Source of the DNA: Helicobacter canadensis MIT 98-5491
GTDB lineage: Bacteria > Campylobacterota > Campylobacteria > Campylobacterales > Helicobacteraceae
DNA: 64,000 nt
Direction of reading: 5' to 3'
Assembly (NCBI RefSeq): GCF_000162575.1
Contig: NZ_CM000776.2
Coordinates: 1,182,950 to 1,246,949 of the forward strand
Shown: in pieces, positions 63 through 46,654 of the stretch
How the letters are laid out: each line of letters begins with the position of its first letter
Position numbering within the stretch: position 1 is the stretch's first letter
Program-made: the position numbers and the translations under genes
Notes under the pieces: model-generated
Databases searched by the model: none
Told to the model about the DNA's origin: nothing
The model's input: the letters and a program-made list of their open reading frames with translations, nothing else

Positions 63-563
63 TTAAATTCCTGAAATAATAAGGCTAAAGCCACTTTTAA
101 GCTCTTTAAAAGAAATCGTGCCTGTTGTAACTTTATAAACGACTTGATTATTTGCATCATTTATTCTTTGCTCATAACCCTCTTTTAGAATCTTTTTGTT
201 TTTTCCCATAAAGATTTCCCTACCTTCTAAAATAGCCTTAAAATCTAATTCCAATAGCCCATCATTACCAAAAAGCTTTCTAATTAACGAAGCTGTTGCA
301 TAGCATTGTTGATTTAAACAAATGCGATTCTTAGAAACATAAAATTCTAAAAGTAAATGCCCTGCATTAAAGATTTCTAAGGAAATGTCACCATTGGAAT
401 AAGATTTTATCAATCCTGTGTCATAGAATCGAAAATCTTTTGTAGAAAAAAAGATAATTTTAGGAGTTGTTTTCTCTAAGCTTAAGGAGGGCTTAGCACA
501 CCCTCCAAATGCAACAAGAAATAAGAAAATTAAAAATTTTCGCCTGTTAAGATACGATACCAT
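63..563 (-). CDS. Putative lipoprotein beside FlgP-like gene
   Basis: The 166-residue product has a positively charged N-terminus, a hydrophobic stretch and a lipobox ending FGGC with Cys22, so it should be lipidated and membrane-attached. No catalytic motif is visible; the rest is mixed alpha/beta with one Cys pair near residues 78 and 83. Its start lies 34 bp inside the end of the FlgP-like gene, which implies translational coupling and co-transcription from the sigma-54 promoter at 1127-1144. By position it could play the part FlgQ plays for FlgP in Campylobacter, but I cannot show homology. The role is unknown. Confidence 0.7.
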   Translation of the reverse strand: MVSYLNRRKFLIFLFLVAFGGCAKPSLSLEKTTPKIIFFSTKDFRFYDTGLIKSYSNGDISLEIFNAGHLLLEFYVSKNRICLNQQCYATASLIRKLFGNDGLLELDFKAILEGREIFMGKNKKILKEGYEQRINDANNQVVYKVTTGTISFKELKSGFSLIISGI

Positions 564-1084
564 CTTTTTCCATCAAGTTTTAATTCCATATTAACTTGGC
601 ATAAACCATCTTTGTAAATAGTTTCGATAATTTCAGCATTTCTAATTACCGCCATTACTTTAGTTTTAACTGTGGAATTTTTTAGCACCATATCTCTAAC
701 AGTATCTTGTGCATTTACTCTAATTCCATACATTTTCTCACCAATTTGTCTATACGCATCAACAATTGCAGCTCTTTTAGCTAACGCCAAAGCTTGTGCT
801 GGAGAAACCGTTGATTCTGGAGCGACACCCATACCAATAGCACTAATCTCAATAATGCTAGAAGGCGTAATGATAGGCGCATTTGGAATCACAATATCAT
901 CTCCCCCAACTTCTATACCTTGTAAATTAGTTGGCACATTAGAGTTTCTGTTTGCTTGTAAGCTTACATTGCCAATAGGGCTAACTTCACTCGTTGTTGT
1001 CGCTGTATTAACTTGTGCAGCAAACAAACTTGTTCCAAAAAGCATTCCTGCCAAAACCAATGAAATTGTTTTTTTTGTTGCCAT
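530..1084 (-). CDS. LPP20-domain protein, FlgP-like
   Basis: This 184-residue exported protein has a signal peptide cleaved near FAA-QV and an LPP20-type domain over about residues 80-180, including AIGMGVAP, ALALAKRAAIVDAYRQIGEK and a C-terminal KLDGKRWYRIL. The domain is that of Campylobacter FlgP, an outer-membrane component of the basal disk around the flagellar motor. A sigma-54 promoter lies 43 bp upstream of the ATG, as expected for a mid-class flagellar gene. Unlike classical FlgP, the signal peptide has no lipobox Cys, so it appears not to be lipidated. The LPP20 family is clear; the FlgP assignment is inferred from domain, promoter and a neighbouring Maf gene. Confidence 0.75.
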   Translation of the reverse strand: MATKKTISLVLAGMLFGTSLFAAQVNTATTTSEVSPIGNVSLQANRNSNVPTNLQGIEVGGDDIVIPNAPIITPSSIIEISAIGMGVAPESTVSPAQALALAKRAAIVDAYRQIGEKMYGIRVNAQDTVRDMVLKNSTVKTKVMAVIRNAEIIETIYKDGLCQVNMELKLDGKRWYRILTGENF

Positions 1085-1126
1085 TTCAATCCTTTGATAT
1101 TTTGTTTAAAAACACATTACTCTATA

Positions 1127-1144
1127 AAGCAATCCGTGTTCCAA
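1127..1144 (-). promoter_or_regulatory. Sigma-54 promoter for FlgP-like operon
   Basis: The minus strand reads TTGGAACACGGATTGCTT, with GG (-24) and GC (-12) exactly 10 nt apart. This matches the TTGGAAC-N5-TTGCTT form of sigma-54 promoters in Campylobacter and Helicobacter flagellar genes. It lies just downstream of the Maf stop codon and 43 bp before the FlgP-like start, so it splits the locus into two transcription units. Confidence 0.8.
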
Positions 1145-1145
1145 T

Positions 1146-3062
1146 TTATGATAAAATTGTTTCTCTTAAATTTTCTACCATCTTTTCCATTGCCTTATTA
1201 TACAATTCTCCTGCTTTTTTCCAAAGCTCTTCCATATTATCATAAGGCAAATGCAAACTCCCTAGCACTAAGTGATAAAGAAAATGGCTTAAAGTTCCCC
1301 CAAATAAAATTCCTATAAAAGCATTTTTTTGAGAAGTTTGAGCAATTGCTTCAAAAATTTTATCCACTGCACTAAAAAGGCTTTTTTTATTACTTACTTT
1401 TACTTTAAATAAATCTCCAATCGTATTTTTAAAGGCAAGAATCTCAAAAATATAAAGCTGAGAATCTTTAGTATAAAATTTCTCTTCTTTGGAATCTTTA
1501 AAAAGTGATTTTAGTTGCTCCAAAGCTTCCTTTTTATTAATTTCTTTTAATTCAAAATCTTCACAATGTATAGGCGTAGCTCCTTGAATGTAAGCACCAT
1601 CATTTAAGTTTAAAATATTAAAAGGCTTAAGAGACCTAAAGGCTTCTTCTAGTGCATTTCTTGAGAGAGAATAAAGGGCATCTGAATAAATATCCTCACT
1701 AAAATTCCCCCTTACTTGATAAGCGCCTTGTGGAATCTCTTCTGTTTCTTCTCCATAATAAGAATTTTTAGCATGCTTCTTAGCACCTTTCTTGTACCCA
1801 CAATCAAGTCCGCACAAAATCACATCGCTACCCAAATAACTTGCTAAAGATGCTCCAGCATTTCCCACTAGCGGTGCGGTAAATTTGACTTTAAACTTAG
1901 GTTCATTTAAGTTTGCTGCACTAGAACCATCTCTTTCAAACAAATAAACTTCTTTCGCTAGCTCCTTAGCCTCCTTACTCAACACTGTCGCACAAAGCAA
2001 GGGAATATCATCAAGTGGAGCTTCTCTTAAAACATCCACTAAATAATGATGTCTTTCAATTTCAATTTGAAAATCCGGTTTGATTCCAGCAGCCAAAAGC
2101 GGCTTTAGTGCCGTTCCACAACTAAAGAGAATCATTTTGTTTTGATTAGCTTTAATAAAGGGGAGCAAAAAATCTAAACTTGGTCCATTAGCAATCACAC
2201 AAATAGGGGCATTAATGCGTTTTGGTTCTACCAACATAGGCGAAAGCGGAAAGCTCTTTTTATTTACAATTCCTTTCATTTCATCCTCATAAGTTCCCCA
2301 ACCCCTAAGGGATTGCAAATGCAACTCATACACAATGGAACGCACACTTATATTAAGCGGCGTCTGATACATCATTAATTCTAAACGCATCACAGAAGTG
2401 CTGATTCTTCGCATTAAAAAAAAGCTTAGCGCATAATCTTTTTTCATTAGACTTTCAATAAAAATATATCCACCCTTATTTTCTGTCTTGTAAAATAAAG
2501 TTGCAAAATCCACAAAAAAACAAGCAATCCGAAACAAATCTAGCGATTCTTCAAAAATAAAAAAATTATTAAATTTATTGTATTTCTCCACTAATGCTTG
2601 CAAAAAGATTCCACCTCCAAGCCCAAAAAGACTAAGATTAGGTAAAAAATCTGAAGGCAAGTGATAAGAATCAACAGCCCCCTTTTGGGCTACAAAATCT
2701 AAAATTCCATTGACTAAAATTGAGCTATAAGGAAAATCTTCATTCATTATAGCTATATCATTACCATAAACACGATTCCATTTTTCGTTAATTGGTGGAT
2801 TGAATGTGCAATTTTTATGCACCAAAAGCATTGTTGAATAACCCTTATCCAAAGGAAACATTAAAGAGTTATTAAGCGTGTTAATAATATTTAAACCCTC
2901 TTTACCAATATAAAGTTGATATTCTTTAGATGGCTCTTGCAAAGCAGTAAAAAGACTAGGATAATTGACTTGAAAAAATTTCAAATTCTCCTCAAATCTT
3001 TGAGCGCAAAATGCTTCAATCTCTTCACAACTACTCTTTTCTAAAAATTCTATAATTCCCAT
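1146..3062 (-). CDS. Maf-family motility accessory glycosyltransferase
   Basis: The 638-residue protein belongs to the motility accessory factor (Maf/DUF115) family, whose members in Campylobacter, Helicobacter and Aeromonas transfer nonulosonic acids such as pseudaminic acid onto flagellin before export. The core MptE-like domain begins around residue 290 with APICVIANGPSLDFLLPFI, followed by ILFSCGTALKPLLAAGIKPD and GNAGASLASYLGSDVILCGLDCGY. Length fits the family (600-700 aa). It precedes the FlgP-like gene on the same strand. Nonulosonic acid synthesis genes (pseB-I) are not in the window. The family call is firm; the sugar and target are inferred. Confidence 0.85.
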   Translation of the reverse strand: MGIIEFLEKSSCEEIEAFCAQRFEENLKFFQVNYPSLFTALQEPSKEYQLYIGKEGLNIINTLNNSLMFPLDKGYSTMLLVHKNCTFNPPINEKWNRVYGNDIAIMNEDFPYSSILVNGILDFVAQKGAVDSYHLPSDFLPNLSLFGLGGGIFLQALVEKYNKFNNFFIFEESLDLFRIACFFVDFATLFYKTENKGGYIFIESLMKKDYALSFFLMRRISTSVMRLELMMYQTPLNISVRSIVYELHLQSLRGWGTYEDEMKGIVNKKSFPLSPMLVEPKRINAPICVIANGPSLDFLLPFIKANQNKMILFSCGTALKPLLAAGIKPDFQIEIERHHYLVDVLREAPLDDIPLLCATVLSKEAKELAKEVYLFERDGSSAANLNEPKFKVKFTAPLVGNAGASLASYLGSDVILCGLDCGYKKGAKKHAKNSYYGEETEEIPQGAYQVRGNFSEDIYSDALYSLSRNALEEAFRSLKPFNILNLNDGAYIQGATPIHCEDFELKEINKKEALEQLKSLFKDSKEEKFYTKDSQLYIFEILAFKNTIGDLFKVKVSNKKSLFSAVDKIFEAIAQTSQKNAFIGILFGGTLSHFLYHLVLGSLHLPYDNMEELWKKAGELYNKAMEKMVENLRETILS

Positions 3063-3133
3063 TTTTTACTCATCTTAAAATTATTCTACTTTAAAAACTT
3101 CATATTTTCTTGACAAATTAGTAACAATATTTT

Positions 3134-3142
3134 TGTTATAAT
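3134..3142 (+). promoter_or_regulatory. Extended -10 promoter
   Basis: TGTTATAAT is a perfect extended -10 element (TG-N-TATAAT) about 54 bp before the methyltransferase ATG. A second TATAAT follows at 3147-3152. No well-spaced -35 is visible, which is normal for sigma-70 promoters in this group. Confidence 0.55.
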
Positions 3143-3195
3143 ACAATATAATTTCTAAAAAATACGATTTTACATTATAAATATTAAGGCAATCA

Positions 3196-3750
3196 ATGCT
3201 TTTAGAATTCTTAAAACATCCAAAACACACCGGCTCTCTTTATTCTAGCTCACAAGCTCTAAGTCAAGCAATGATAAATAACATAGATCTTCAAAATGCT
3301 CATTACATTGCAGAAATTGGTCCAGGATTGGGTGCTTTTACTCAAAAAATTCTTAATCTCAAACCAAAAGAATCGCGTTATTTTGCAATTGAAATCAATC
3401 CTCACTTTGTCAAAAAACTCCAAGAAAAATTTCCCAATATTGAAATAGAACACAAAAATGCTAATCGGATTCTCTCAATTATGCGTAGCAAAGATATTCA
3501 ACATCTTGATGCCGTTATCTCAGGCATCCCTTGGAGTTTGCTTAAATCAAAAGAACAAGATTTACTCTTAAAAAATATCCATCAAGCTTTAAAAAAAGGA
3601 GGCAGTTTTTCTACCTTTGCTTATGTGCTTCCTACCCCTAAAACTTTAAGTTTTAAAAAAAAGCTTCACAAATACTTTTCTCAAGTCAAAACTTCCCCTA
3701 TTATTTGGAATAATCTACCACCTGCCTTTGTTTATTATTGCAAAAAATAA
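3196..3750 (+). CDS. SAM-dependent methyltransferase, PmtA/KsgA-like
   Basis: The 184-residue product starts MLLEFLKHPKHTGSLYSSS, the pattern of the phospholipid N-methyltransferase (PmtA) and rRNA adenine methyltransferase-like families (conserved P-x-x-x-G-[AS]-x-x-[PS]-SS). Motif I, AEIGPGLGAFTQKIL, is the SAM-binding glycine loop, and the acidic residue ending the second strand is in YFAIEINP. It is too short for full KsgA, which lies near 270 aa. With psd also in this window a phosphatidylethanolamine substrate is possible but unproven. It is followed after 68 bp by prs, which has its own -10. Confidence 0.7.
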   Translation: MLLEFLKHPKHTGSLYSSSQALSQAMINNIDLQNAHYIAEIGPGLGAFTQKILNLKPKESRYFAIEINPHFVKKLQEKFPNIEIEHKNANRILSIMRSKDIQHLDAVISGIPWSLLKSKEQDLLLKNIHQALKKGGSFSTFAYVLPTPKTLSFKKKLHKYFSQVKTSPIIWNNLPPAFVYYCKK

Positions 3751-3781
3751 TTTTTCTTAGCTTTTTAAAATTTTAAAAGAC

Positions 3782-3787
3782 TATAAT
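3782..3787 (+). promoter_or_regulatory. -10 element of prs
   Basis: A perfect TATAAT lies 31 bp upstream of the prs ATG. An AAAGG ribosome-binding site sits between them. The upstream stretch is T/A-rich without a clear -35. Confidence 0.55.
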
Positions 3788-3818
3788 TACACTTTTAAAT
3801 CTTTCTTAAAGGTATCTA

Positions 3819-4748
3819 ATGCAGAATTTTAAAATTTTTAGTGGGAATGCACATCGTGAGTTTTCCGAGAAAGTCGCAAAAAGTCTTGATGTGGAATTGT
3901 CTAATGCTGAAATTACGCGTTTTAGTGATGGAGAAATCAATATTCGACTTTGTGAGAGTGTAAGAGGAAAAGAAGTCTTTGTGATTCAACCCACTTGCGC
4001 ACCCACTAATGATAACTTAATGGAGCTTCTTATTATGATTGATGCACTCAAAAGAAGCTCTGCAGATTCTATTAATGTCATTATGCCTTATTTTGGCTAT
4101 GCAAGGCAAGACAGAAAGGCGGCTCCAAGAGTGCCAATTAGTGCAAAACTAGTTGCAGATTTACTCCAATGTGCTGGAATCACACGCCTTATTACAATGG
4201 ATTTACACGCAGGACAAATCCAAGGTTTCTTTGATATTCCCGTGGATAATCTTTATGGTTCTATCGTATTAAAAAACTATGTAACTTCCAAGAATTTCCC
4301 CAATCCAATCATTGCTAGTCCCGACATTGGTGGAGTTGCCCGAGCAAGATATTTTGCTAAACTTTTAGGATTAGAAATTGTTATTGTAGATAAAAGACGC
4401 GAAAAGGCAAATGAGAGTGAAGTCATGAATGTTATTGGAAATGTAGAAGGTAAAAATGTTATTTTAATTGACGATATGATTGACACTGCAGGAACTATCG
4501 TCAAGGCTGCAGAAGCTTTTAAGAAAAATGGAGCAAGCAGTGTGATTGCATTAGGAACGCACGCAGTTTTTAGCGGTCCTGCCTATCAAAGAATCCAAGA
4601 AAGCTCCCTTGATGAAGTTATCGTTACTGACACCATTCCACTTAAAGAGAAAATTGAAAAAATTAAAGTCGTAAGCGTAGCACCTTTGTTTGCTGAAGTT
4701 ATTAGAAGGATCAATCACAATGAAAGCGTTAATTCCCTTTTTGCTTAA
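3819..4748 (+). CDS. prs: Ribose-phosphate pyrophosphokinase
   Basis: The enzyme makes PRPP from ribose 5-phosphate and ATP for nucleotide, histidine and NAD synthesis. The 309-residue length is typical. Visible signatures are FSDGEI near the N-terminus, the PRPP synthase signature DLHAGQIQGFFDIPVDNL, the flexible-loop region RYFAKLLGLEIVIVDKRR, and the PRPP-binding loop LIDDMIDTAGTIVKAA. An AAAGG site precedes the ATG. The last 29 bp overlap the start of the cyclophilin gene, so the two are probably co-transcribed. Confidence 0.97.
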   Translation: MQNFKIFSGNAHREFSEKVAKSLDVELSNAEITRFSDGEINIRLCESVRGKEVFVIQPTCAPTNDNLMELLIMIDALKRSSADSINVIMPYFGYARQDRKAAPRVPISAKLVADLLQCAGITRLITMDLHAGQIQGFFDIPVDNLYGSIVLKNYVTSKNFPNPIIASPDIGGVARARYFAKLLGLEIVIVDKRREKANESEVMNVIGNVEGKNVILIDDMIDTAGTIVKAAEAFKKNGASSVIALGTHAVFSGPAYQRIQESSLDEVIVTDTIPLKEKIEKIKVVSVAPLFAEVIRRINHNESVNSLFA

Positions 4749-5289
4749 ATTTTTTCTTTGTTGCTTTATTTTTGGAGCTTCACTCAATGCAGCAGAATCT
4801 AAAAAGATTCAAGCCATTTTAGAAACAACTTCTGGGAAAATCACTCTAGATTTATTTCCAGAAGCCGCTCCAAAAGCTGTAGAAAACTTTGTAACACACA
4901 TTAATAATGGATATTATAATGGCACAATTTTTCATCGCACGATTCGTAAATTTATGATTCAAGGCGGTGATCCAACAGGAACAGGAAGTGGTGGAAAATC
5001 CATTTGGGGAAAAGATTTTGAAGATGAAATTGCTAAAGGCTATGCCTTTAATAGAGCGGGAATTTTAGCTATGGCAAATTCAGGACCCAATACTAATGGA
5101 AGTCAATTTTTCATTACCACAACAAGAACACCTCATCTCAATGGACTACACACAATCTTTGGAGAAATTAGCAAAGATAACCAAGAAGAAAGCTTTCAAA
5201 CTCTAAGAAAAATTGAATATTCTCCCACTAATTCTCAAGACAAGCCCCTTAAGGAACAAAAAATTATTAAAGCTTATATCATTCAATAA
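4720..5289 (+). CDS. Exported cyclophilin-type peptidyl-prolyl isomerase
   Basis: From the ATG at 4720 the protein has 189 residues with a signal peptide (KALIPFLLKFFLCC...LNAAES), so it should act as a periplasmic proline isomerase. The cyclophilin core is clear: GTIFHRTIRKFMIQGGDPTG, LAMANSGPNTNGSQFFIT and LNGLHTIFGE, which contain the catalytic Arg, Phe and Gln residues of the family. I chose 4720 rather than an in-frame codon at 4690 because it gives the signal peptide and has AGAAGGA nine bases upstream. It overlaps the end of prs by 29 bp. Confidence 0.92.
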   Translation: MKALIPFLLKFFLCCFIFGASLNAAESKKIQAILETTSGKITLDLFPEAAPKAVENFVTHINNGYYNGTIFHRTIRKFMIQGGDPTGTGSGGKSIWGKDFEDEIAKGYAFNRAGILAMANSGPNTNGSQFFITTTRTPHLNGLHTIFGEISKDNQEESFQTLRKIEYSPTNSQDKPLKEQKIIKAYIIQ

Positions 5290-5317
5290 TCCACAAAAGA
5301 TTGCTTAAATGTTTCTT

Positions 5318-5407
5318 TCATTTAAGCTTTCTTTTATAGAGCAATAAAATTCCCATTACCGCAGCAAAAAACACAATTTCTATTAAGAGATTTTGATAAT
5401 TTTCCAT
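5318..5407 (-). CDS. 29-residue single-span membrane peptide
   Basis: An ATG at 5407, one base after the TAA of the EF-hand gene, opens a 29-codon frame ending in TGA at 5318. The peptide starts MENYQNLLIEIV, continues as one hydrophobic segment of about 17 residues and ends with a basic tail (YKRKLK), which is a classic micro-membrane-protein layout. There is no obvious Shine-Dalgarno site, so translation would depend on coupling to the upstream stop codon. It resembles the peptide at 43366-43461. The function is unknown. Confidence 0.5.
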   Translation of the reverse strand: MENYQNLLIEIVFFAAVMGILLLYKRKLK

Positions 5408-5408
5408 T

Positions 5409-6728
5409 TTAAACATTCAATAAAAGATTTTGTAAAATTGTATCACTTTTAAGCCAATTCTCTCTTTCAAATAAATCCAAAGAATTCAAATAATTTTCAT
5501 CTTGCAAATTTCTAGCGACTTCTAGCCATTCTTGAATTTCTTCATCGTTAGTTGCGATTTTTGCCTGTGTTTCTTTGACTTCATCTTTTTCTTCTTCTCT
5601 TTCTTCTTGCTTTGGCTCTTTTGTTTCTTCTTCTTTAACACCCAAATTCAGCAAAATATTATTAAGCGATTCTTCGATATTTTCAACTTCAAGATTAAAT
5701 TTTTGTATCACAAAAATATCTAAACTTTGAGAATCTCCATTGGTTTGAAAAAGCATAATTTCATTTTTATCCCCCATAATTTCATTAAGATTCAAAGCAC
5801 CATCTAAATTGCTATCTTGAGAAATAGAATGGTTAATATAATCACCCAAATTATCAATAAAACCAACTTGCTCTAAAAATTTCATCTGCTCATCTGTGCT
5901 ACCTGGAATCTGCTCAGATATGGAATGGTATTGTCCATCTTTTAAAGAAACAAGGCTATTTAGGTGAATTCCCTCTTCTAAGCTAATCTTTCCATCGCCA
6001 TCTACATCGCCCTTTAAATAACCCATACCATAAGCGGCATCATAATACCAACCCTTTACATAATCGCTTGCAGCTTCTAAACTCCCAAATTTTTCATTTA
6101 GCTTTTTAGCATTTGCTTCATTTAAAGGAATGGCAACCTTTTTTCCGCTCACCTCATCAATAAAGCTTATCATATTCTCCCCTACACCCTGCTCTGCATC
6201 AACTTCTAGGGGATTATATGCATTTTTGATTTCTTCGCTTATATTTTGTGGAGCTTTAGGGCTTGTTTGAACAAGCGTTTTTTCAAAAAAATCTCCCATA
6301 AAAGAATTTCTTTGATTATTTAATATCAACTCTTCTTTTTCTTGATTTTTGGGTAAGGTAGTTTCTTGATTTGATATTTCATCTTGCAAAGTCAAAAACT
6401 TAGATGCCTTATTTTCAAAATCAAAAAGACTGTTTTTGGGCTTCTTTTCATCTGATACTAAAAATTCACTTGCTTCACTTTCTTGTAAATACTCTAAATT
6501 ATCTTTTGAGGTTTGAGTATCTATTGGCAAAGGATTTTCATTTTCTTGAAACTGCGTAATTATAGTTTGAAATTCTTCTTGTTTTTCTAGCGATTCTGCT
6601 TGATTTAAAGCAGCTTCAAATGTCTCATTTTTATCATTTTGTGGTGTCCAATTTTTTTGAATCTCTTTTAAAAAAGCGATACTGCTTGCATAAGAAGCAT
6701 AATTTTCTTTTATAGACATATTATTCAT
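5409..6728 (-). CDS. EF-hand protein under sigma-54 control
   Basis: The 439-residue acidic protein has no signal peptide. Residues 241-252 form a canonical EF-hand loop (DVDGDGKISLEE) and residues 305-316 a second one (DSNLDGALNLNE), so calcium binding is likely. The first 160 residues are low-complexity, Q/E/N-rich and probably disordered; a highly charged stretch rich in E and K lies near 365-390. The start at 6728 has GGGAG seven bases upstream. A sigma-54 promoter at 6791-6808 puts it in the flagellar regulon by inference. I do not recognise a named family; a flagellum-linked or type III-exported role is possible but unproven. Confidence 0.75.
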   Translation of the reverse strand: MNNMSIKENYASYASSIAFLKEIQKNWTPQNDKNETFEAALNQAESLEKQEEFQTIITQFQENENPLPIDTQTSKDNLEYLQESEASEFLVSDEKKPKNSLFDFENKASKFLTLQDEISNQETTLPKNQEKEELILNNQRNSFMGDFFEKTLVQTSPKAPQNISEEIKNAYNPLEVDAEQGVGENMISFIDEVSGKKVAIPLNEANAKKLNEKFGSLEAASDYVKGWYYDAAYGMGYLKGDVDGDGKISLEEGIHLNSLVSLKDGQYHSISEQIPGSTDEQMKFLEQVGFIDNLGDYINHSISQDSNLDGALNLNEIMGDKNEIMLFQTNGDSQSLDIFVIQKFNLEVENIEESLNNILLNLGVKEEETKEPKQEEREEEKDEVKETQAKIATNDEEIQEWLEVARNLQDENYLNSLDLFERENWLKSDTILQNLLLNV

Positions 6729-45104: not shown

Positions 45105-46592
45105 TTAAGCAGCTAAGAGTTTATGTAGATTACCAACAAGACTTTCTTTAAATAAATTCTCTTCCATACCATCAAACACAAAACGATTCAAATCCGCAAA
45201 AGTCTCATCAAATTGCTTCAAAAGATCTCCAAATATATGAGATGATTCTTCCTTACCCTCAAAACCCAAAAACGCTTCTTGCAATCCTTTCCATAAAGTA
45301 GATAACTCTTGACTAACGCCATTATTAGCACTCTCTAATGAACTAAGACTAAAGGAATATTGTGTAGCACTAAAGCTAAAAGCACTCAACGAAGTTTGAT
45401 TTCCATTTAAAATATTTCCGCTGCCTTGAGAAAAACTAAAATTAATATTCAAATTTTGCAAATAAGCACGACTTGCTGCAACCTGCAATCCTTGTTGCGA
45501 ATTAATATTAGAAGTATTTTGCGTATTATTTGTTGGATTTTCTGCTACAAAATCAATATGATGAATCGCTCCAAGACTTCCATCTTCTCTCATAAAATTG
45601 GAAGTTTGTTGCTTAATTCCCAATAAATCTCCTTCTTCTCCCCTCATCATTTCTTGGCTCTCTTTAGCATCAAGATAAATCACACCAATCCCTTTTTCTC
45701 CAAGCCCCACTAATTCACCTTCACCCTTTTGGTTTGGCGTCCAGATTCTTAGCTTATCATAGATAGGATCATTTTTATCAATCTTGCCATCTTGATTAGA
45801 ATCATAAGCACTTAAATCTTTAAATCCATTGCCGCTTTTTGTTCCAAAAAGTTCATTTCCATCATTAATTTTGCCATCATTATTTTTATCTAATGCCAAA
45901 AATCCAGAACCTTCTTTTAATGTAGAAATTTGATCTTTTGTTCCATCGCTATCAAGGTCAAAGCTCATCTTTGTATCACTAAGCTCTGTCCCATTCCCCG
46001 CATAATCAATCACAAGCGGATCAATCACCTTATTAGAATTGTTAGAATTAGTATTGCTATTAGTTGTGTTTTGTGAATTAATTTGCAAATTCTGCACGAA
46101 GCTTTGAGACACGCTAATACTCAAATCCAGCTTCTTTGTTACTCCATCTTTGCCTACAATGGTGCCTTGAATAGATAATTCCAAAGATTGCGAAAAGCCT
46201 TGAGTGATGCTAATTCCACTTCCAAGATTATAATTAGGGCGTGAAAAATTTCCATTTAATAGCGATTCTAAAGAAATACTTGTATCAGAAGAATTTGTTG
46301 ATTTCCCACTAGAAACTCCAAAAACTTCTTCCCAAACCTTAATCATTTCATTTTGAATTTCGGCAATTTTACCTAAAGCTTGATTAATAACTTGCTTATG
46401 AAAATCTCCTAATTTACTATTTAAAAGCTCCGTTGAAGAAAGAATATTAGAAGCTTTTTGGCTATTCTCCCCTTCATTATTAATTTGTGGAACACTATTT
46501 GCTTGATTGTTTGCAATCTCTTCTCCAAGAGCACTCCAATGCGTGGTGGTATATGAGGCTTGTAGAGAAGAGAAATTCATACTTGCTTGCAT
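45105..46592 (-). CDS. EF-hand-type protein under sigma-28 control
   Basis: From ATG 46592 (AAAGGAG five bases upstream) the protein has 495 residues and no signal peptide. Residues about 190-340 match the secreted-type calcium-binding module: IDYAGNGTELSD, FDLDSDGTKDQ (about 211), LDKNNDGKINDGNELFG (about 234) and DSNQDGKIDKND (264). The flanks are Ser/Asn/Gln-rich with helices near 55-90 and at the C-terminus, somewhat like exported flagellar proteins. A near-perfect FliA promoter precedes it. It may leave the cell by flagellar type III export; this is inference. An in-frame ATG at 46628 lies inside the promoter. Confidence 0.75.
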   Translation of the reverse strand: MQASMNFSSLQASYTTTHWSALGEEIANNQANSVPQINNEGENSQKASNILSSTELLNSKLGDFHKQVINQALGKIAEIQNEMIKVWEEVFGVSSGKSTNSSDTSISLESLLNGNFSRPNYNLGSGISITQGFSQSLELSIQGTIVGKDGVTKKLDLSISVSQSFVQNLQINSQNTTNSNTNSNNSNKVIDPLVIDYAGNGTELSDTKMSFDLDSDGTKDQISTLKEGSGFLALDKNNDGKINDGNELFGTKSGNGFKDLSAYDSNQDGKIDKNDPIYDKLRIWTPNQKGEGELVGLGEKGIGVIYLDAKESQEMMRGEEGDLLGIKQQTSNFMREDGSLGAIHHIDFVAENPTNNTQNTSNINSQQGLQVAASRAYLQNLNINFSFSQGSGNILNGNQTSLSAFSFSATQYSFSLSSLESANNGVSQELSTLWKGLQEAFLGFEGKEESSHIFGDLLKQFDETFADLNRFVFDGMEENLFKESLVGNLHKLLAA

Positions 46593-46627
46593 TATTTCTC
46601 CTTTGTAAAAATAAAATAGCACATTCA

Positions 46628-46654
46628 ATATCGGCTATTTCAAAAAAAACTTAA
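46628..46654 (-). promoter_or_regulatory. Sigma-28 (FliA) promoter
   Basis: The minus strand has TTAAGTTT, an 11-nt spacer and GCCGATAT, almost identical to the FliA consensus TAAAGTTT-N11-GCCGATAA. It lies 36 bp before the ATG at 46592. Confidence 0.82.

Follow-up and report, generated by a model that had tools for sequence, protein, structure and literature searches.

The closest described relative of the domain considered here is the self-processing module (SPM) of FrpC, which upon addition of Ca2+ cuts its own Asp414-Pro415 bond and forms an aspartyl anhydride that can link to lysine (PMC7078468). The module has a Ca2+ affinity near 150 µM and is unfolded in the cytosol; because of this affinity (about 150 µM), processing takes place only outside cells, and Kuban et al. 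described the SPM as exclusive to Gram-negative RTX proteins (PMC7078468). An SPM-like region also occurs in a Firmicute protein, FtxA of Filifactor alocis (PMC7692872). In Campylobacter, FlaC and the Fed proteins are non-flagellar proteins that leave the cell through the flagellar apparatus (PMC4863622, PMC5223770). Here we describe P0001, a 495-residue protein encoded in a 64,000-nt stretch of the Helicobacter canadensis MIT 98-5491 genome (contig NZ_CM000776.2, positions 1,182,950 to 1,246,949; the window). It combines a domain that is almost certainly homologous to the FrpC SPM with a promoter that is very probably read by sigma-28 (FliA). The features that carry this comparison, in window coordinates, are:

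45105..46592, minus strand: the gene for the 495-aa protein P0001, read as an open reading frame from an ATG start at 46592, stop included
45543..46019, minus strand: SPM-like domain, aa 192-350, found by phmmer, family profile, Foldseek and VIA
46017..46022, minus strand: Asp191-Pro192 (codons GAT CCG), predicted self-cleavage bond, from its invariance and its equivalence to FrpC D414-P415 by sequence and structure
45924..45959, minus strand: Asp-rich loop 1 (aa 212-223, DxDxDG), with D212, D216 and G217 invariant in 38 relatives
45852..45890, minus strand: calcium loop 2 (aa 235-247), equivalent of FrpC D462-E474 by alignment
45768..45803, minus strand: calcium loop 3 (aa 264-275), equivalent by alignment of the FrpC loop starting at D499

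A phmmer search with P0001 returned the FrpC SPM as the sole match below 0.001 (E 5e-6), and a profile of the family reached it at E 4e-16. AlphaFold2, run with no templates, modelled region 190-350 at a predicted local distance difference test (pLDDT) score of about 90, rising to 95 with a deeper alignment; the FrpC structures, released in 2020, postdate the training set of that program. Two FrpC entries were the only significant Foldseek matches to the model (E 5e-10, prob 1.00). With VIA, the FrpC SPM chains gave Z 19.3-19.5 over 156 residues at a root-mean-square deviation of 2.4-2.5 Å, the next unrelated chain scoring below Z 4. Pfam has no model for the SPM domain; PANTHER groups proteins of this kind as FrpA/C-related. 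A sequence-only reading had described P0001 as an EF-hand protein of 495 residues with three calcium-type loops and no signal peptide. The length, the three Asp/Asn-rich loops (212 DLDSDG, 235 DKNNDG, 264 DSNQDG) and the missing signal peptide were all borne out, the N-terminus MQASMNFSSLQASYTTTHWS showing no hydrophobic signal. The Pfam EF-hand models, however, remained below their cut-offs (PF13202, 18.3 bits against 25.9), so that the EF-hand character is a resemblance and not membership. The label also overlooks that the domain is of the FrpC type with an invariant Asp-Pro. Lanmodulin was likewise rejected, its weak NCBIfam and PDB matches (E 0.02-0.03) being confined to two loops.

P0001 shares with FrpC (PMC7078468) and ApxIVA the fold over approximately 156 residues (Z 19), the Asp-Pro at its N-terminal edge, the D462-E474 and D499 calcium loops, and W284, which is the equivalent of FrpC W519 and is 95% conserved. 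The likeness is limited to about 28% identity, however, with calcium sites 1 and 4, D478 and W451 not kept. The P0001 family also adds a DxDxDG loop (212-217, invariant in an alignment of 38 sequences), which in P0001 corresponds to none of the four FrpC calcium sites. Unlike FrpC and ApxIVA, most members stand alone, are 300-560 aa long, lie behind a sigma-28 type promoter and have neither RTX repeats nor a type I exporter. FtxA is different too: it is a large RTX protein of 1989 aa, has 16 calcium repeats and is not flagellar. FlaC and Fed, in turn, are small late-flagellar or flagellum-dependent proteins of Campylobacterota without a Sec signal, as is P0001, but they lack an SPM; we claim no sequence relation, and the parallel is an analogy of working only.

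The Asp-Pro pair is invariant in 38/38 and in 83/83 aligned relatives, the latter spanning Campylobacterota, Pseudomonadota, Lachnospiraceae and others; P192 aligns with FrpC P415, and the 15 residues preceding the pair are not conserved. Of 90 small stand-alone proteins left once duplicates were removed, 88 have the pair; L055 and L143, which do not, look RTX-like. Where the fold occurs in large RTX-type proteins, the Asp position is taken by S, C, P, T or D. The family was assembled from 46 relatives in GTDB genomes, partly found via the peptide DKNNDGKI so that loop conservation among them is partly built in, and from further relatives found by profile in Lachnospiraceae, Campylobacterota and Gammaproteobacteria, sets that are free of this bias. 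A divergent Campylobacterota paralogue (L142) has Asn-Pro instead of Asp-Pro in a genome that also holds a normal copy (L130), and might serve as a naturally occurring non-cutting control.

Upstream of the P0001 gene lie the following elements:

46647..46654, minus strand: -35 element TTAAGTTT of a sigma-28 (FliA) type promoter, by direct reading and motif match
46628..46635, minus strand: -10 element GCCGATAT at a spacing of N11, by direct reading and kept in genus relatives
46598..46604, minus strand: Shine-Dalgarno sequence AAAGGAG, by direct reading

The full promoter, TTAAGTTT-TTTTTGAAATA-GCCGATAT (46654..46628, minus strand, 0 mismatches), has the position and spacing given in the sequence-only reading. 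Two of its 16 positions depart from the Escherichia coli FliA consensus, and the genome's own flaA promoter, TAAAGCTT-N12-TCCGATAT, is of equal quality. In a genome-wide motif search, the exact form AAGTTT-N11-GCCGATAT occurred once in 1.62 Mb, at P0001. When up to two mismatches are allowed, the genome holds no more copies of the motif (16+8) than would be expected from its reversed control (14+7), so that the single box is weak evidence by itself and was judged by its conservation. Within the genus, the box sits 55-62 nt 5' of the start codon in most relatives. For the wider family, de-duplicated members were compared with other genes of the same loci using a reduced score (TAAA-N14-16-GCCGATA(A/T), maximum 12). 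A score of at least 10 was found upstream of 57/87 members and 34/464 same-locus genes (p 1e-31, a value that overstates independence since the scored members are related), and one of at least 11, the score of P0001 itself, upstream of 27/87 and just 4/464. By the same scoring, about one-third of members have no convincing box, a point against the reading set out below. The boxes occur separately in Helicobacter, Lachnospiraceae, Gammaproteobacteria and one Syntrophorhabdaceae metagenome-assembled genome (MAG). The earlier proposal of FliA control is thus supported beyond a single site, by genus conservation, flaA-like quality and enrichment upstream of relatives, and we consider sigma-28 control of P0001 highly probable.

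The family is coupled to flagella. Flagellin was present in all 34 family carriers of a Lachnospiraceae sample, as against 79/150 genomes overall (p 4e-12), and in 12/13 carriers among Gammaproteobacteria, as against 126/232 (p 0.003). Among 42 family genomes reached through their loci, 40 have flagellin, and the remaining two are MAGs. In the literature searched, no paper describes a stand-alone SPM or one encoded among flagellar genes, and the two papers that mention SPM together with flagella do so incidentally. While the SPM itself is known, a stand-alone, flagellum-linked SPM family across several phyla has so far gone unrecognised.

An evenly balanced case can be made that P0001 is a late-flagellar (FliA-class) protein that is exported, folded by Ca2+ and cut at D191-P192, and that may link its N-terminal part to lysine. 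At the low Ca2+ of the cytosol the SPM would be unfolded, as would suit a substrate of the flagellar type III apparatus. Once exported, the module would be folded by Ca2+, which would strain and break the D191-P192 bond. The N-terminal fragment formed in this way would be 191 residues long and carry a reactive aspartyl (anhydride) at its end. This Asp would then either react with water or become linked to a lysine of a neighbour, with flagellin, sheath, mucin or the cell surface as candidates. The parts of this scheme differ in strength. Self-cleavage is fairly probable, whereas export through the flagellum could as easily fail as hold, and covalent linkage of the N-terminal part is a more tentative suggestion that we would lean slightly against. 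The flagellar type III apparatus is the likeliest route because of late-flagellar co-regulation and because P0001 has no Sec signal or RTX repeats and its genome no HlyD-family gene above cut-off.

Other observations weigh against the scheme. The FrpC calcium sites are retained at two of four: site 1 (D419/D421/D423 with D456) is degenerate in the family, and site 4 (D521-E532) is degenerate with four residues deleted. FrpC D478 is replaced by T or P. FrpC D579, where D579A abolishes processing and D579N does not, corresponds to position 345 (H/Q) or, on a two-residue shift, to D347 (95% conserved), and sequence alignment cannot decide between them. Because two calcium sites are degraded and D478 is not kept, SPM activity may be lost or altered in P0001; the predicted fold and scissile bond are shared with FrpC, and activity cannot be assumed. 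The argument for flagellar export consists of co-regulation and the absence of other signals, and the expression, secretion and cleavage of P0001 are predictions. The same losses would fit a FliA-class exported protein whose SPM fold no longer cuts and which, folded by calcium, serves on the flagellum as a scaffold or adhesin, its Asp-Pro kept for folding. In the published model of FrpC, Asp414 itself binds a fifth Ca2+ (PMC7078468), and the Asp could accordingly be structural. The fold can, however, do without the Asp, since RTX-type relatives have S, C, T or P ahead of the Pro; in the P0001 family the residue is never replaced (83/83), and we consider a non-cutting scaffold unlikely, if still worth keeping in mind.

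It is more improbable that P0001 stays in the cytoplasm as a motility regulator or calcium sensor, acting for example on FlgM/FliA or chemotaxis. The lack of a Sec signal would agree with such a role, as would the family gene beside flgM in one Geobacteraceae contig and the regulator genes near a few relatives. Yet SPM Ca2+ binding lies in the 100 µM range (PMC7078468), far above cytosolic levels, and the neighbourhoods are otherwise unrelated to signalling. The SPM fold was published from RTX proteins (PMC7078468), which would favour exit by a type I secretion system; set against this, P0001 has only 495 aa, GGxGxDxxx nonapeptide repeats are absent on reading, the best HlyD-family score in the genome is 52.7 bits against a cut-off of 208.65, and the family also occurs in Gram-positive Lachnospiraceae. 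The missing repeats and the lack of a HlyD gene above cut-off led us to reject type I export, the least probable of the explanations considered.

The sequence-only reading had also suggested that P0001 and the product of a second gene of the window may form one calcium-dependent flagellar or type III-secreted system:

5409..6728, minus strand: EF-hand-like protein with two canonical 12-residue loops, by sequence reading

The placing of this gene in the sigma-54 class was upheld. Orthologues across the genus keep the -24/-12 box [TAG]GGAAT-N6-TTGCT, 75-85 nt 5' of the start codon, with the GG-N10-GC arrangement, and the gene thus probably does belong to the RpoN-class flagellar genes of the genus. 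The partnership fared differently. Both genes belong to flagellar-type regulons of one genome and both products have Asp-rich loops, but the two proteins have no sequence relation. Outside the genus the 5409 protein is all but absent (1/21 genomes, against 18/19 within), whereas the SPM family is widespread without it, in many flagellated bacteria. With unrelated sequences and different distributions, the partnership was rejected as very improbable.

Outside the SPM, P0001 has three further parts:

46527..46592, minus strand: N-terminal segment (aa 1-22), candidate export signal, counterpart of M[KRI]IxxSxIxMxSxH
46080..46214, minus strand: predicted long beta hairpin (aa 127-171), from the AlphaFold2 model and column profile
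45108..45527, minus strand: C-terminal helical tail (aa 356-495), from alignment, its helices modelled with low confidence

The typical member runs from a conserved N-terminus, M[KRI]IxxSxIxMxSxH, which is kept in relatives from several phyla, through a variable linker and a predicted beta hairpin to the SPM; the helical tail is confined to Helicobacteraceae members and most relatives lack it. The hairpin, which is amphipathic, lies shortly ahead of the Asp-Pro bond; its second strand alternates between polar and apolar residues across the family, and G143, D149 and G150 are conserved. Its weak similarity to the stem hairpins of beta-barrel pores (Z 3-4) was taken as a common arrangement and not as a sign of a pore. 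The P0001 gene is present in single copy and its neighbours are an AIR-synthase-related (HypE-like) gene and a glutamate dehydrogenase gene. A search of a plasmid collection gave no match.

Some loci elsewhere are of interest in their own right. In the Geobacteraceae contig mentioned above, from a MAG, the family gene (L037:4365-5863) is followed after 33 bp by flgM (Pfam PF04316, E 2e-11), and both cheW and a methyl-accepting chemotaxis protein gene are nearby. A second small stand-alone group from Gammaproteobacteria (L159, L160, L161; about 290-330 aa) has DPLALD and is closer to FrpC, L159 matching 6sjw at E 9e-22; one of the host genomes (G390) has no flagellin, so this group may not be flagellar. 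One Campylobacterota genome (G333:C1:1006795-1022264) holds at least five SPM-like domains of RTX type clustered within 16 kb, and a flagellar-type member elsewhere.

A stand-alone SPM family with sigma-28 type promoters, spread over swimming bacteria of several phyla, would bring anhydride chemistry into flagellar biology and suggest a general role, for example the covalent decoration of flagella or of attachment surfaces. It is possible, though we advance it with some doubt, that these proteins form a widespread, as yet unnamed flagellum-exported class in Gram-negative and Gram-positive swimmers, in which Ca2+-triggered Asp-Pro cleavage and anhydride chemistry attach N-terminal parts covalently to flagella, sheath, mucus or neighbouring cells. 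NeissLock-type tools for protein ligation could also draw on the many natural SPMs of such a family.
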